Source: Pedobacter sp. SYSU D00535 | GTDB lineage: Bacteria; Bacteroidota; Bacteroidia; Sphingobacteriales; Sphingobacteriaceae | DNA: 58,802 nucleotides | Assembly (NCBI RefSeq): GCF_017355855.1 | Contig: NZ_JAFEWD010000016.1 | Location: 1-58,802, forward strand | Direction of reading: 5' to 3' | Shown here: positions 16,646 to 23,773 of the stretch, piece by piece | How positions within the stretch are numbered: position 1 is the first letter of the stretch | How the letters are laid out: each line of letters starts with the position of its first letter | Made by a program: the position numbers and the translations under genes | The notes under the pieces: model-generated | The model's input: the letters and a program-made list of their open reading frames with translations, nothing else | What the model was told of the DNA's origin: nothing | Databases searched by the model: none

Positions 16646-17416
16646 ATGGCACGTTATTCGAAAGGAGTTTATGGGCCTATTACAGGTAAAATAGGCAACG
16701 TTATCGGGAGCAGCTGGCGGGGAATACCTTATTTCAGGAGCCGGCCGAGGAAATCCACGAAACCAGTTACGGAAAAGCAACAAGGAACCCGCACCTCTTT
16801 TACTTTCATGCAGAACTGGTTGAGTCCACTGCATAAATTGTTGATGATCGGCTTCGAATCGTATGCACCTCCGGCCACCGGCAGGCAATCCGCCCATTCT
16901 TATAATGCAAAGAACGCCCTGATCCAAACCGAAGGCGGCTATGAGATCGATTTTAGCAAATTTCTCCTCAGCTGGGGCGACTTACCCGGAACTGGCCAAC
17001 TGGATATATCGATGAAGGATTCTACGACGCTGCTGATCACCTGGGACACCAGCATTCAGGGGGAGGCCGAGGGTGGAGACGCAGTGCTTTACATGGTCCA
17101 TTTCCCCGACCCCGGTCTCTTTATGACAGGTATTGGTTTGCAATGCAGGCAGGACGGTAGGGCGGAGGTTAGCCTGGCGGAGGCGCTGGTTAATAGGCCG
17201 GGCTTCAGAATAGAAGCATTTGTTGCGTTTAAATCGCTAAAAACCAATAAAGTTTCTACCAGCCAGTATGCAGGAGGACTAACACTTAACGAAATGCAGG
17301 CAGAATTACCTGGCACAGCCGGGGCGGAAGGTCCAGCCTATTGTGAGCCTCAAAGCGTACCTTCAGGCCTTTTCAGCAAGTTCGTGCTTGCACCAGTTCT
17401 TCCTTCGTCCTCCTGA
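16646..17416 (+). CDS. DUF6266 family protein
   Basis: The 256-residue protein starts MARYSKGVYGPITGKIGNVI and continues GSSWRGIPYFRSRPR, the characteristic N-terminus of the DUF6266 family of Bacteroidota; its function is not known. The remainder alternates predicted strands (ISMKDSTTLLITWD, GGDAVLYMVHF), suggesting beta-sandwich repeats. There is no signal peptide or membrane helix. It stands alone between IS-like debris upstream (with tandem TCCGCACC-like copies at about 16503-16535) and REP hairpins downstream, which fits a recently gained accessory gene. Confidence 0.8.
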   Translation: MARYSKGVYGPITGKIGNVIGSSWRGIPYFRSRPRKSTKPVTEKQQGTRTSFTFMQNWLSPLHKLLMIGFESYAPPATGRQSAHSYNAKNALIQTEGGYEIDFSKFLLSWGDLPGTGQLDISMKDSTTLLITWDTSIQGEAEGGDAVLYMVHFPDPGLFMTGIGLQCRQDGRAEVSLAEALVNRPGFRIEAFVAFKSLKTNKVSTSQYAGGLTLNEMQAELPGTAGAEGPAYCEPQSVPSGLFSKFVLAPVLPSSS

Positions 17417-17945: not shown

Positions 17946-18626
17946 ATGAAAAAGACTTTACTACTAGTACTTCTGTCTATAACCTCTACGCTGGGATTTG
18001 CTCAGTATAACTTTTATAAGTTCAGCGCGACGGCAGGAGTGGGGGGCACAAGCTTTTATGGGGATATGGCCACCAAACCGAGCTACGCCGGCAATGTAAA
18101 TCTCGATTTTAACATCACGCCTTTTTCTACCCTTGGAGTAGAAGTGGTAAAAGGGCAGTTCGATAGTAATCCGGACGTGCACCTCCGCCAGTTTACCAAT
18201 TCCTTCCTGGCTTATAACATCAATGGGAAGTTGACCCTCGGACAAGTGGTGGATTTTGAATCAAGTAATTTTTTGTATGCGATCAGAAATCTGTACCTGG
18301 GTGTAGGTGTCGGCATGATTAAGAATAAGCATACATCTATCGTACGTACCAAGACTAATCCCGATGGAAATCCGTACACGTTTCCTGGGGAATCAGACGG
18401 ATCGAGCATGTATGTGCCAGTCAACCTGGGTTATAAATTCATGATCCAGGATCGCTTTGGCTTCAATAGATACCAGGTGCAACTGAATTATCAATTCAAC
18501 ACTGCTATGAAAGATAATCTGGATGGTTATCAGGATCCCCTTTACTTAGGAAATAAGTTCAAGGATTTCTATTCGGTATTTACGCTTGGACTTGGAATTT
18601 CTTTCGGACCGGAGGGTTTGTATTAG
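17946..18626 (+). CDS. Outer-membrane beta-barrel protein
   Basis: The 226-residue protein has a signal peptide (MKKTLLLVLLSITSTLGFAQ, cleavage after residue 19) and then alternating amphipathic strands with aromatic ends, such as NFYKFSATAGVGGTSFYGDM, and a final strand FYSVFTLGLGISFG, typical of small OmpA-like or porin-like barrels of Bacteroidota. No OmpA peptidoglycan domain is present. A large hairpin, TTTCGTCC / GGACGAAA (18631-18675), follows the stop. It may serve the neighbouring exopolysaccharide system, but only proximity suggests this. Confidence 0.75.
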   Translation: MKKTLLLVLLSITSTLGFAQYNFYKFSATAGVGGTSFYGDMATKPSYAGNVNLDFNITPFSTLGVEVVKGQFDSNPDVHLRQFTNSFLAYNINGKLTLGQVVDFESSNFLYAIRNLYLGVGVGMIKNKHTSIVRTKTNPDGNPYTFPGESDGSSMYVPVNLGYKFMIQDRFGFNRYQVQLNYQFNTAMKDNLDGYQDPLYLGNKFKDFYSVFTLGLGISFGPEGLY

Positions 18627-18700: not shown

Positions 18701-19735
18701 ATGATTACCTATACATTAAAAGTAGTTGAGATCAGGAGAGAAACCTCGGATACGATTACGATTTCTTTCAAGCAGCCGGGATTAAAGAAAGTCAAATATA
18801 AGGCAGGACAATATCTATCTCTGATATTTAGGATAAACGGAAGAAAGCACGTCAGACCCTATTCTTTCTCCTCTGCACCCGGTGTTGATTCTTTGCTGGA
18901 AGTGACTGTTAAATTAATACCAGGGGGAATCGTCTCTACCTACTTGCATACCTCAGTAGTGGTGGGCGATGTAATTGAAGTAATCGAGCCGCTAGGTGAT
19001 TTTGTAGTTCCCCAAAACTTGAATATAAAGCACCTAATGTTGTGGGGCGCCGGAAGTGGGATTACGCCACTCTATTCTATTTTGAAATCCGTTCTTCATT
19101 CTCATCCTCTCATTCATGTCACTTTGGCTTACTGTAATAAAACAAAGGCGGATACGATTTTCTATACGTCCTTAAATAGCCTCGAAAAAGAATATTCAGA
19201 GCGTTTCACCTGGTATCAGTTCCTGACAAGGGAGACACTCGGCGATTGCTCTCATAGGATACAGAATTGCCGAATATCTGGTGAAAGTGTGAAGGGGATA
19301 GTGCAACGTATAAAGCACCTCGAAAGCAGTATTCACTATATATGCGGACCGGTTGAGTTAAAGCAGACGGTAAAAAGCGGGCTGGTAGAATCGGGGGTGG
19401 CTCCACATCAAATACATTCTGAGGATTTTGAGCACGTTGTTAATGAAGAGGAGCTCGGGGATATTACAGACCGGTTGGTTAGAGTAAACTTGGCTCAGGA
19501 AGAAAAGGAGTTTAAGGTTCAGCGGGGGAAAAGCATACTCGAGGCAGCTCTGGATGCAGACTTAGAGATACCCTATTCCTGTCAGACCGGGTCTTGCGGC
19601 CAATGTAAAGGAATTTTAAAAACCGGCTCAATAAGAACAATAGGTCAAGAGCACCCAGCCGACAGGCTCGCCGAGGGAGAACACCTATTATGTTGTTCCT
19701 ATCCACTCAGTGATGATATAGAAATTTTAGTTTAA
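18701..19735 (+). CDS. FAD/NAD flavoreductase with C-terminal [2Fe-2S] domain
   Basis: The 344-residue protein is an electron-transfer reductase. Domains in order: FAD binding (RPYSFSSAP, residues 52-60), NAD binding (WGAGSGITPLYSIL, about 113-126; CGP near 214) and a plant-type ferredoxin domain with Cys294-x4-Cys299-x2-Cys302 and Cys331 or Cys332. It begins an operon with rfbF, rfbG, an SDR and rfbH, exactly where the CDP-6-deoxy-glucoseen reductase (E3, AscD/RfbI) belongs. It would pass electrons from NADH to RfbH. The characterised E3 enzymes carry the ferredoxin domain at the N-terminus, so this one is permuted and looks like phenol hydroxylase or PaaE reductases. The role is inferred from context. 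Confidence 0.85.
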   Translation: MITYTLKVVEIRRETSDTITISFKQPGLKKVKYKAGQYLSLIFRINGRKHVRPYSFSSAPGVDSLLEVTVKLIPGGIVSTYLHTSVVVGDVIEVIEPLGDFVVPQNLNIKHLMLWGAGSGITPLYSILKSVLHSHPLIHVTLAYCNKTKADTIFYTSLNSLEKEYSERFTWYQFLTRETLGDCSHRIQNCRISGESVKGIVQRIKHLESSIHYICGPVELKQTVKSGLVESGVAPHQIHSEDFEHVVNEEELGDITDRLVRVNLAQEEKEFKVQRGKSILEAALDADLEIPYSCQTGSCGQCKGILKTGSIRTIGQEHPADRLAEGEHLLCCSYPLSDDIEILV

Positions 19736-19745
19736 ATATCAGAAA

Positions 19746-20516
19746 ATGAAAGTAGTACTATTAGCCGGGGGATTGGGGACCAGGCTGTCAGAAGAAACCT
19801 CTTTACGTCCGAAGCCAATGGTTGAAATCGGCGGCATGCCTATGTTATGGCATATCATGAAGATTTATTCGGCCCACGGATTCAATGATTTTATTATTTG
19901 TCTCGGCTATAAGGGCTATTATATCAAAGAGTATTTTTCCAACTACTTCCTCCATAAATCCGATGTAACTATAGATCTTAAGTCGAACTCGGTAAAGGTG
20001 CATGATTCCCAAGCTGAGCCCTGGACGATCACGCTCGTCGATACGGGAAATGAAACGATGACGGGCGGCCGGATCAAAAGAATAAAGCCGCATATAGGCA
20101 ACGAGCCATTCCTGCTTACCTATGGAGATGGTGTTAGCAATGTCGATATAAAAGGCCTGGTAGAATACCACAAATCACAGGGGAAGTACTGTACGGTGAC
20201 CGCTGTCCAACCTTCAGGGCGTTTTGGTGCGCTCAATCTTTCTGAAGAAAATCAGGTAGACTCCTTCCTAGAGAAGCCGAAAGGAGACGGCGCCTGGATT
20301 AATGGAGGATTTTTTGTGTGCGAGCCTGCAGTTTTTAACTTCATTGACGGGGATAGTACCATTTGGGAAAGAGACCCGATGGAGCGAATAGCTGCGGAGA
20401 AGCAAATGACTGCCTTCAAACATACAGGTTTCTGGAAGCCTATGGATACCTTGAGGGATAAACATGAGCTGGAAGAGGATTGGTCTAAAGGGAAGGCACA
20501 ATGGAAGATTTGGTAA
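19746..20516 (+). CDS. rfbF: Glucose-1-phosphate cytidylyltransferase
   Basis: The enzyme makes CDP-D-glucose from glucose 1-phosphate and CTP, committing carbon to 3,6-dideoxyhexoses. The 256-residue protein opens with LLAGGLGTRLSEETSLRPKP, the nucleotidyltransferase signature, followed by MVEIGGMPMLWHIM. The metal-binding TYGDGVSNVD and the FLEKPKGDGAWINGGFFV segment are typical of RfbF. It begins ten bases after the reductase gene and lies 20 bases before rfbG. Confidence 0.96.
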   Translation: MKVVLLAGGLGTRLSEETSLRPKPMVEIGGMPMLWHIMKIYSAHGFNDFIICLGYKGYYIKEYFSNYFLHKSDVTIDLKSNSVKVHDSQAEPWTITLVDTGNETMTGGRIKRIKPHIGNEPFLLTYGDGVSNVDIKGLVEYHKSQGKYCTVTAVQPSGRFGALNLSEENQVDSFLEKPKGDGAWINGGFFVCEPAVFNFIDGDSTIWERDPMERIAAEKQMTAFKHTGFWKPMDTLRDKHELEEDWSKGKAQWKIW

Positions 20517-20536: not shown

Positions 20537-21625
20537 ATGCAGTTCTGGGACATTTATAAAGGAAAGAAAGTACTATTAACCGGCCATACCGGATTCAAAG
20601 GGTCCTGGATGGCTATTTGGTTGAAGATGTTAGGCGCCGAAGTGTATGGCTATGCGCTCGCACCTTCTGGTCCGGAGGACAATTTTGTCACCTGTGGACT
20701 TGCTTCCGAGATCAATCATCTTGAGGGCGATGTAAGGGACGGCAACAAATTGAGAGCCTATTTCCAGGAGCTGCAACCAGATATTGCATTTCACCTGGCT
20801 GCTCAACCACTCGTACTTCTTTCCTATGACGATCCCGTTGGTACCTTTGAATCGAACCTGATGGGTGTTGTCAACTTTTTTGAAGCGGTTCGCGCAACAC
20901 CTTCGGTAAAGGCAGCGATAAATGTAACAAGCGACAAATGCTACGACAATAAAGAGTGGGTATGGGGCTACAGAGAAAATGACCCTATGGGGGGAAAAGA
21001 TCCTTATAGTGCCAGTAAAGGCTGTGCCGAACTTATTACCTCCTCGTACCTTCATTCCTATTTTAGTGCGGAGGGGACAGCTGCAATTGCATCCGCCAGA
21101 GCTGGTAATGTGATAGGAGGGGGCGACTGGGCCAAGGACAGAATTATTGCAGATTACTTTCGTGCTTATCGAAAGGATGAGAAGCTGCTGGTTCGAAATC
21201 CTTATGCAACCAGGCCCTGGCAACATGTGTTGGAGCCACTGAGTGGCTACTTGAATCTGGGTGCGAAGCTTTTGCAGGAGGGGAAGAAATATAGTGGCGG
21301 TTGGAACTTTGGTCCCGAGGATACGGCTAATTATTCGGTAAAGGATCTTATTGAAAAACTGCTTGTATTAGATAAAAGAGGCGGCTATACGACTCCTAAT
21401 AATCTAAATAAACCTCACGAAGCCACTTTTCTAAAGCTGGATATTTCAAAAGCTGTCAATTTCCTTCAATGGCGGCCTGTATTAAATTTCGATGAGACGG
21501 TACAGTTTACGTATACGGGATACAAAGACGAATTGAGTACCAGAGATGTTTTGAAACACCGGAGGATACAAATTGGTGAATATGTGGCTAAAGCCCATGA
21601 AAAAGGTATAGCATGGAGCCATTAA
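20537..21625 (+). CDS. rfbG: CDP-glucose 4,6-dehydratase
   Basis: It converts CDP-glucose to CDP-4-dehydro-6-deoxyglucose. The 362-residue extended SDR protein has the NAD loop GHTGFKGSWMAIWL, the catalytic TSDKCYDNKE segment and DPYSASKGCAE (YxxxK), all diagnostic of RfbG. The end overlaps the following gene by 13 bases, indicating translational coupling. Confidence 0.97.
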   Translation: MQFWDIYKGKKVLLTGHTGFKGSWMAIWLKMLGAEVYGYALAPSGPEDNFVTCGLASEINHLEGDVRDGNKLRAYFQELQPDIAFHLAAQPLVLLSYDDPVGTFESNLMGVVNFFEAVRATPSVKAAINVTSDKCYDNKEWVWGYRENDPMGGKDPYSASKGCAELITSSYLHSYFSAEGTAAIASARAGNVIGGGDWAKDRIIADYFRAYRKDEKLLVRNPYATRPWQHVLEPLSGYLNLGAKLLQEGKKYSGGWNFGPEDTANYSVKDLIEKLLVLDKRGGYTTPNNLNKPHEATFLKLDISKAVNFLQWRPVLNFDETVQFTYTGYKDELSTRDVLKHRRIQIGEYVAKAHEKGIAWSH

Positions 21626-22512
21626 GGAAGATATTGGTTACGGGAGCCTCCGGGTTTGTCGGGAAACATCTGGTGAGGGGCTTATGTGAAGCAGGCTACC
21701 AGGTGGTGGGGCTAGTCAGAGAAAATTCAGACACAAGGGCGTTACCGCAACTGCCAGATTGCCATCTTTATTATCTTGAGGGCGGGCTCGAAAAGCTATT
21801 TTTTGATTTTGAAATTCAGGGCATAATACATACTGCAACCTCCTATGGTAAATCAGGGTTACTGTCAGAAGTGTTAGAGACCAACCTCGTGTTACCGGTG
21901 AAATTGATCGAAGCAGGGATATCAAGGGGACTTCAATTTTTCATAAACACAGACACCTTTTTTACCAAATCTTCCGGAACTTATCAGTACCTGAACCAGT
22001 ATACGCAGTCGAAGCAATTCTTCATGAAAGCATTGGAGGGGTATAGGGGAAAGATAAAGTGTATCAACTTTAAGTTGGAGCATGTATACGGCGAAGGTGA
22101 TGGAGATTCGAAATTTGTGACGCAGATACTGAGACGTCTTCTTGCAAACGAACCGGCTATCGATTTAACCGATGGTTTACAAAGGAGAGATTTTATTTAT
22201 GTAAAGGACGTGGTATCGGCCTATAGAACTATACTTGAGAAGCTACCTGTATTAGATGATTATACGGAGTTGGAAGTAGGAACAGGTGAGTCGGTAAGTA
22301 TCCGGCAGTTCACCGAAACTGCGAAGAAGCTGACAACATCAACCTCCGTTCTTAATTTTGGTGCCCTGGCTACTCGTCCGGGCGAATTTAGCGAGTCAAA
22401 AGCCGATAACGAAAGGCTGAGGATTTTGGGCTGGAGGCCCACTTTTAACCTAACTCAGGGCTTAACAAAGATTATTACACACGAAAAATCGATAAGAAAT
22501 GATACAAATTAA
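21613..22512 (+). CDS. NAD(P)-dependent SDR, probable CDP-dideoxyhexose synthase/epimerase
   Basis: The 299-residue extended SDR protein has [11 protein letters not shown] (residues 10-20), an NTDTFF segment and YTQSKQFF with the catalytic YxxxK. Its place between rfbG and rfbH suggests the last step of the pathway: reducing the 4-keto group (as abequose or paratose synthases do) or changing configuration. The NTDTFF..YxxxK layout resembles abequose/paratose synthases, but the sequence alone does not tell which sugar is made. It overlaps both neighbours by 13-14 bases, so the set is tightly coupled. Confidence 0.75.
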
Positions 22513-23773
22513 TGGAAGAGAAATTTCATTAAAAACTTCAAATCCGGTAATTGCGGGAGAGTCATATATTCCGGTAACCGGTAAAATAATTGAGGAAGAT
22601 GACCTGCTGTTGGCATTAGAAGCAGTGGCCGATGGATGGCTAACAGCCGGCCGCTTCGCCAACGAGTTTGAAAGCTCCTTTGCTTCTTATTTTGGTGCTG
22701 CTAAATCTTTATTGGTTAATTCAGGATCATCAGCGAATCTGGTGGCGTTTTATGCCCTAACCTCCCCGAAGCTGGGAGACAGAGCGATCAAGCCGGGCGA
22801 TGAGGTGATTACCGTTGCAGCCGGTTTTCCAACAACAGTAAACCCGATCATTCAGTTTGGAGCAATTCCAGTATTCATTGATGTGGACATTGCAACACAC
22901 AATGTAAAACCGGAAATGATAGAGGCTGCTGTATCTCCGAAAACAAAAGCGATCATGATTGCGCATTCCCTGGGAAATCCCTTTGATTTGGATGAAGTGA
23001 TGCGGGTGGCAAAAAAGTATAATCTTTGGGTGGTGGAAGATGACTGCGATTCCTTGGGGGCTACTTATAACGGTAAAAAAACCGGTACTTTCGGAGATAT
23101 TTCAACCTTCTCATTCTATCCTGCTCATCATATTACGATGGGAGAAGGTGGAGCTGTTTTAATTAACAATCCTGAATTGGCAAAGGTCGCAGAAAGCTTC
23201 CGCGATTGGGGTAGAGATTGTTACTGTGAACCCGGGAAGGACAATACCTGCGGGTGCAGATTCGGGCAACAACTGGGCTCCCTTCCTTATGGATATGATC
23301 ATAAGTACACCTACTCACACATTGGCTTCAACCTGAAAGTGACTGATATGCAGGCGGCGCTCGGAGTATCTCAACTAAAAAAAGTAGATCGTTTCGTTGA
23401 AAAGAGAAGACAGAATTACCGGGCCCTGTACGAGCGAATGAAGGAGTTTGAGGAAATATTCATTCTTCCGGAACCAACTCCCAATTCTGATCCATCCTGG
23501 TTCGGGTTCCTGATGACTTTGCGGGAAGGAGATGCGGCAGACAGACACATGTTAGTGCAGCATTTGGAAGCTAACAAGATAGGCACGCGTCTGCTTTTTG
23601 CAGGCAACCTACTTCGTCAGCCTGCTTATGCAAACATAAATCATAGGGTTGTGGGCGACTTAACCAATACCGATATTATAATGAATCAGTCGTTTTGGTT
23701 AGGAGTTTGGCCGGGGCTTAATGAAAGTCATTATGATTACATGGCGCAAGTTATAAGAAATTATATAGGATAA
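22499..23773 (+). CDS. rfbH: CDP-4-dehydro-6-deoxyglucose 3-dehydrase (E1)
   Basis: RfbH removes the C3 hydroxyl using PMP and an iron-sulfur cluster; electrons come from an E3 reductase. The 424-residue protein has the aminotransferase fold, but the usual Schiff-base lysine is replaced by histidine in [14 protein letters not shown] (His210/211), the hallmark of E1. The cysteines of [14 protein letters not shown] (241, 243, 251, 253) match the E1 cluster-binding region. With rfbF, rfbG and a reductase the CDP-3,6-dideoxyhexose route is complete. Confidence 0.96.

Follow-up and report, generated by a model that had tools for sequence, protein, structure and literature searches.

By what route does RfbH, the 3-dehydrase of CDP-dideoxyhexose synthesis, receive its electrons in Pedobacter sp. 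SYSU D00535? The textbook case of a PMP/[2Fe-2S] enzyme that removes the C-3 oxygen is the E1/E3 pair. In the classical E3 reductases AscD and RfbI the ferredoxin domain lies at the N-terminus. The window, by which we mean the whole stretch of 58,802 nucleotides analysed (contig NZ_JAFEWD010000016.1), carries an rfb operon headed by a flavoreductase of a different build, hereafter called E3C. A preliminary description, made from the sequence alone, had proposed that a PaaE/phenol-hydroxylase-like reductase was recruited here as a second origin of the electron donor of RfbH. Our analysis indicates that a PaaE-like reductase has very probably become a second, separate E3 acting as donor for RfbH, a function that we infer from gene linkage.

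The operon, its reductase and its acceptor

The relevant features of the window are the following.

18701..19735, + strand: E3C, flavoreductase with a C-terminal ferredoxin, proposed electron donor of RfbH (344 aa)
18716..19003, + strand: FAD-binding module of E3C, residues 6-101 (Pfam FAD_binding_6; RPYSFSS motif)
19046..19375, + strand: NAD-binding module of E3C, residues 116-225 (Pfam NAD_binding_1; GAGSGITPL and CGP motifs)
19487..19705, + strand: [2Fe-2S] ferredoxin module of E3C, C-terminal, residues 263-335 (Pfam Fer2; Cys294, 299, 302, 331)
19746..20516, + strand: RfbF/DdhA, glucose-1-phosphate cytidylyltransferase (TIGR02623, 430.8 bits, cut-off 300.25)
20537..21625, + strand: RfbG/DdhB, CDP-glucose 4,6-dehydratase (TIGR02622, 457.9 bits, cut-off 278.45)
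21613..22512, + strand: SDR-family sugar-nucleotide enzyme (Pfam Epimerase)
22499..23773, + strand: RfbH/DdhC (E1), PMP- and [2Fe-2S]-dependent 3-dehydrase (NF011936, 699.8 bits, cut-off 423)

These genes form a tight operon in which E3C comes first, separated by 10 bp from rfbF, which is followed after 20 bp by rfbG and then by the overlapping SDR and rfbH genes. The ORF positions and the curated cut-offs passed confirm that E3C heads an operon with rfbF, rfbG and rfbH, and place an SDR gene in it as well. The latter probably encodes the C4 reductase or epimerase that completes the sugar, an exact role that we infer. A DUF6266 protein and an outer-membrane beta-barrel match (weak, below cut-off) lie 5′ of the operon, at 16646-17416 and 17946-18626.

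The Pfam order FAD_binding_6, NAD_binding_1, Fer2 confirms the reading of 18701-19735 as a flavoreductase with a C-terminal ferredoxin: since Fer2 occupies residues 263-335, after the FAD and NAD modules, E3C does not have the classical arrangement, in which an N-terminal ferredoxin is followed by these two modules. Within the FAD module, R52, P53, Y54, S55, S57 and S58 are invariant in the alignment. Cys294, 299, 302 and 331 are likewise invariant over 18 aligned rows; because Cys332 is only nearly so, Cys331 is the likelier fourth cluster ligand of the two that the preliminary description had named. The predicted model built from the 18-row alignment has a mean pLDDT of 84.3. Its best Foldseek match is phthalate dioxygenase reductase (2pia), which shares the module order and is matched over the whole length, but with 22% identity only; we take 2pia to be an FMN enzyme of another subfamily.

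The partner enzyme was compared with the solved E1 structure. Residues 14-423 of the window RfbH align to residues 24-433 of 3bcx (E=2.9e-178), and Cys183, 241, 243 and 251 together with His210 correspond to E1 positions 193, 251, 253, 261 and 220, respectively; an alignment of 15 RfbH proteins shows no variation at any of these five residues. The four E1 cysteines (Cys193, 251, 253 and 261) are presumably the ligands of the E1 cluster, and the window RfbH thus has the four [2Fe-2S] cysteines as well as the histidine that replaces the aminotransferase lysine. The accessible part of PMC8987622 mentions the four cysteines of E1 and describes the role of His220; it also states that ColD-type enzymes require no reductase. 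Because the four cysteines and the histidine are conserved, the acceptor encoded in the window appears to be a genuine [2Fe-2S] enzyme of the E1 type rather than of the ColD type. The two partners differ in their rate of change: E3C has changed far more rapidly than the RfbH encoded with it, the window E3C being 44-50% identical to 17 relatives and RfbH 74-88% identical across five loci of the E3C clade.

Linkage of E3C to rfbF and rfbH

The distribution of both genes was determined in 301 genomes from the window's family and in 395 genomes drawn from the phylum, with a threshold of E <= 1e-100 for RfbH. RfbH is present in 48 of the 301 family genomes and in 29 of the phylum draw. The E3C profile also finds 48 family genomes, with scores of 440-578 bits, the next match being at 300 bits. 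The preliminary description had expected the reductase to group with rfbH loci in other genomes, and it does so: 47 of these 48 genomes also have rfbH (Fisher p 8e-53, uncorrected for kinship) and in all 48 E3C lies directly before rfbF. The gap between the two genes, with the rfbF frame taken to start at its first Met, ranges from -46 to 27 bp in 48/48 full-length copies measured (46 from the family plus two, G285 and G316, from another family; G462 and G593 were read separately). In the phylum draw E3C exceeds 500 bits in 5/395 genomes (the window's own, G000, with G099, G122, G285 and G316), all of which contain rfbH, and the next match scores 314 bits.

Few genomes depart from this pattern. 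E3C occurs without rfbH in G462, a genome 60% complete whose contig stops inside rfbG right after E3C-rfbF. G409 has an rfbH of a related clade without E3C, and G467 has two rfbH copies, of which the one in the E3C clade is accompanied by E3C and the other has no reductase nearby. Apparent E3C fragments at some loci turned out to be the ends of the sequence stretches analysed. A Bernardetia plasmid protein with 39% identity, the first of 60 matches listed (1375 records matched), is not located beside rfbFGH.

The position of E3C is also that of the classical enzyme, directly before rfbF in an rfbFGH operon. The classical E3 is, we assume, the product of ddhD. Since ddhD precedes ddhA in the order ddhDABC (accessible text of PMC3715488), and since reductases with an N-terminal ferredoxin (N-type E3) precede rfbF, the position of E3C matches that of an E3. 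This fixed linkage to rfbF bears on the idea that E3C is an ordinary PaaE of phenylacetate catabolism, found in the operon by chance. Indeed, TIGR02160 (PaaE) is the best NCBIfam match of E3C; however, the score of 203.6 bits is below the cut-off of 420.8, and E3C forms a distinct group, set apart by the gap between 440 and 300 bits across the 301 genomes. Score and linkage together rule out a plain PaaE, a reading that we regard as hardly conceivable.

A separate E3 with an N-terminal ferredoxin elsewhere in the genome would have spoken against a donor role of E3C, and was therefore looked for. One RfbH copy over the cut-off and eight Fer2 matches at E <= 0.01 are present in the assembly, which is 4.89 Mb in size and 99.9% complete. 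Two of the eight belong to flavoreductases, namely E3C and a PaaE-like paralogue on another contig (C14), and in both the ferredoxin is C-terminal. Neither the Fer2 scan nor a profile of 14 rows of rfbF-linked N-type E3 (E <= 1e-30) found an N-terminal-ferredoxin E3 in this genome. The one match of this profile among 26 rfbH genomes searched is in G339, and the protein concerned is among the 14 sequences from which the profile was built.

The history of the linkage was traced on a quick tree of 153 RfbH rows, labelled from locus scans with extended stretches where these were cut. L095 and L102 received the E3C label from a cut ferredoxin alone; L093, L094, L096 and L097 (repeat family genomes) were left out, and L185, which repeats L018, and L139, whose row is identical to that of L032, were kept. 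The 51 E3C-labelled rows (50 distinct loci) and two rows without a nearby reductase form one set with an SH-aLRT of 100. Within this set, L091 has E3C-rfbF-rfbG on another contig of the same genome; the contig of L098 ends upstream of rfbG, and a 369-bit match is found on another contig, not beside rfbF. No linked reductase was detected in the stretches scanned around the related RfbH of Chitinophagaceae and Cytophagales, and a PaaE-like protein occurs elsewhere in 9/9 of their genomes searched. Label changes on the tree number three for C and six for N. The pattern is compatible with a single acquisition of E3C, distinct from the one or more acquisitions of N-type E3. Because the tree allows one gain followed by inheritance of the cassette, the linkage counts given above are not phylogenetically independent.

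Ancestry of the flavin and ferredoxin modules

The two modules of E3C were analysed separately. E3C forms one clade in all flavin-module trees, with an SH-aLRT of 99 in the tree of 88 rows, 100/97 in that of 83 rows (without four FNR-only rows and the phthalate-type row L244) and 100/99 in that of 80 rows (without the same five rows and L124, L146 and L203). In the 88-row tree a set of 55 rows (SH-aLRT 96) consists of E3C together with PaaE-like sequences, and N-type E3 joins BenC, AntC and NdoR (support 94). In the 80-row tree the 18 E3C rows unite with 8 PaaE-like rows at 95/89. Forcing E3C and N-type E3 together in this module costs 46 log units and is rejected (AU p = 0.007), so that E3C does not share its flavin-module descent with the rfbF-linked N-type enzymes. 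Mean identity to the flavin module of the window E3C is 48.9% for 17 E3C rows, 32.3% for 38 PaaE-like rows and 20.0% for 18 N-type E3 rows. E3C can thus be placed among PaaE-like reductases in a wider sense, by its FAD-NAD-ferredoxin order and by its grouping with PaaE-like rows, although the branch that has E3C and all 37 PaaE-like rows on one side reaches only 87/73 in the 80-row flavin tree. The paralogue on contig C14 does not appear to be the source: its flavin module is 24% identical and sits on a different branch of the 88-row tree, and recruitment from it is not supported.

The ferredoxin module points the same way. In the tree used for the AU test, which omits L244, L124, L146, L140, L219 and L118, E3C groups with 17 PaaE-like rows at 95/89; the 17 that join it in a tree of all rows are all from the phylum. 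Mean identity to the window ferredoxin is 31.5% for PaaE-like and 26.8% for N-type rows. Taken together, the trees place E3C with the PaaE-like reductases of Bacteroidota, and their simplest reading is that a whole PaaE-like reductase was recruited. Forcing E3C and N-type E3 into one clade costs 9 log units over a module of only 94 columns and is not rejected (AU p = 0.297).

The latter result would agree with a domain swap, in which a PaaE-like flavin module took over its ferredoxin from a classical E3, or with a permutation of a classical E3. The cluster loop is also of interest here. In E3C it reads C-Q-T-G-x-C-x-x-C-K and resembles that of N-type E3: a lysine follows the third cluster cysteine in 48/48 E3C, 16/21 N-type and 5/38 PaaE-like sequences, and a threonine stands two residues after the first cluster cysteine in 45/48, 11/21 and 0/38, respectively. 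This likeness is a lead; it may mean that the RfbH-docking face arose convergently, or that the ferredoxins have a common ancestry. On the other hand, the flavin-module test (p = 0.007) rejects a permutation of the whole classical E3, and both the ferredoxin tree and the ferredoxin identities bring the window protein closer to PaaE-like reductases. We therefore consider a domain swap unlikely, and retain recruitment of a PaaE-like reductase.

The second origin proposed for the donor of RfbH is accordingly supported by the flavin-module phylogeny. Its PaaE-like part stands; the label "phenol-hydroxylase-like" is not apt, as phenol-hydroxylase reductases carry an N-terminal ferredoxin. As for the classical order to which E3C had been opposed, we found Fer2 first in the rfbFGH-linked homologues L115 (Yersinia vastinensis) and L023, and it is also the order ascribed to AscD and RfbI themselves.

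E3C shares with the classical E3 (AscD, RfbI, DdhD) the FAD, NAD and [2Fe-2S] modules, the place directly before rfbF/ddhA and the partner RfbH/E1. It differs in its ferredoxin, C-terminal instead of N-terminal, and in a flavin module of separate descent. With PaaE, which serves phenylacetyl-CoA epoxidase as reductase, and with the relatives of PaaE in Bacteroidota it has in common the domain order and, most probably, ancestry, but it scores below the PaaE cut-off, is linked to rfbFGH and has the threonine and the lysine in its cluster loop. The titles and abstracts of the literature searched, which left subscription papers mostly outside, contain no E3 that is PaaE-like or has a C-terminal ferredoxin, and the accessible part of PMC7725333 makes no mention of E3. 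Provisionally, then, an E3 with a C-terminal ferredoxin is new.

Electron transfer and other partners of RfbH

Because E3C belongs to a different protein lineage and has its modules in reverse order, the electron-supplying partner of the dideoxysugar pathway has probably been recruited more than once. The ancestral cassette of the Pedobacter/Mucilaginibacter type would have acquired a Bacteroidota PaaE-like reductase ahead of rfbF, and this type of cassette would also have reached Flavobacterium. Modelled on the E1/E3 route (accessible text of PMC8987622), NADH would transfer a hydride to the FAD of E3C, from which single electrons would pass in succession to the C-terminal [2Fe-2S] cluster; this cluster would dock on RfbH and, through the RfbH cluster, reduce the PMP-glucoseen intermediate. 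CDP-4-keto-3,6-dideoxyglucose would then be released and probably finished by the SDR. The order of the modules would presumably matter little if a flexible linker tethers the ferredoxin.

The partners of RfbH outside the family were surveyed by scanning loci with profiles built from 52 reductases, since phmmer alone misses diverged ones. Among the best 80 of at least 583 named rfbH relatives, an N-terminal E3 lies directly before rfbF at 20 loci (18 in Pseudomonadota, one in Kiritimatiellota, one in another bacterium), E3C is whole at two and cut by the locus end at three, a phthalate-reductase-like C-terminal form follows rfbG at two (Demequina and Microbacterium), one has a cut flavin-module fragment, and 52 have no reductase near or too short a stretch, an upper figure because L093 (a contig of G542) has E3C beyond its stretch. 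The 26 rfbH genomes of the phylum draw that lie outside the window's family comprise two with E3C, one with an N-type enzyme, four with a ferredoxin-less protein and 19 with none near, the stretches of two of these 19 (L038 and L039) being cut short. A linked, dedicated E3 is thus not always needed, given these 19 genomes of other families and G409, whose rfbH is not accompanied by E3C.

The many loci without a visible reductase would agree with E3C serving another enzyme and RfbH being reduced by generic ferredoxin/flavodoxin systems. There is a precedent in SpnQ of Saccharopolyspora, like RfbH a [2Fe-2S]/PMP 3-dehydrase and one that works with a reductase other than E3, namely generic ferredoxin/flavodoxin pairs; unlike here, no dedicated fusion is linked to it (accessible text of PMC8987622). 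However, E3C of the family is found only beside rfbF, in the E3 position, and of the four proteins encoded alongside it in the operon RfbH alone is known as an iron-sulphur protein that accepts electrons, the SDR using NAD(P). We therefore regard this alternative as very unlikely and keep E3C as the donor of RfbH.

Two further partner types emerged as leads. At four loci (L029, L031, L040 and L042, from families f17 and f35) a flavin-NAD protein without ferredoxin, in frames of 228-257 aa, lies directly after rfbH; it may be an E3 passing electrons straight to the RfbH cluster. The second type is a phthalate-reductase-like protein with a C-terminal ferredoxin in rfbF-H-G operons:

L124:5019-6125: Demequina
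L146:10289-11260: Microbacterium

It was seen at two of six actinobacterial rfbH loci and not at the other four; RfbH itself occurs in 4/299 Microbacteriaceae genomes, the query genome included. These proteins group with the phthalate-type row in the 88-row tree (support 99; a quick tree with long branches), but in the more careful 83-row tree, which lacks that row, the actinobacterial pair is placed next to E. coli PaaE, with a branch length of 3.1.

More broadly, and tentatively, we suggest as quite possible, though short of probable, that RfbH is an open acceptor to which dedicated reductases were assigned on several independent occasions. The reductase would be of a BenC-type, with its ferredoxin at the N-terminus, chiefly in Pseudomonadota and of a PaaE-type in Bacteroidota; four further genomes of the phylum would use the ferredoxin-less flavin-NAD protein encoded directly after rfbH, and some Actinomycetota the phthalate-reductase-like form. 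In the BenC and PaaE types the ferredoxins would have converged on a C-x-T-G-x-C-x-x-C-K loop that marks the docking surface for RfbH.

The classical E3 is called E1-specific in the accessible text of PMC8987622. With another donor of independent descent in the place of E3 in the operon, the requirements that RfbH imposes on its donor become testable, for instance whether the ferredoxin loop by itself determines docking and whether the order of the domains is relevant. E3C and RfbH also provide new E1/E3 pairs for enzymatic synthesis; according to the accessible text of PMC7851689, the combined activity of the classical recombinant pair was not obtained in one study. Moreover, dideoxysugar pathways become recognisable in genomes where E3C would be named after PaaE. 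Relatives of Pedobacter apparently make this rare class of surface sugars with the usual enzymes, except for a partner of different lineage.

Finally, in family f18 (L024, L032, L035, L041, L044, L045 and L046) the rfbH frames are 540-565 aa long. Their open frame extends upstream into a sequence that we take to be PemK/MazF-like, representing either an in-frame fusion or merely the lack of an intervening stop.
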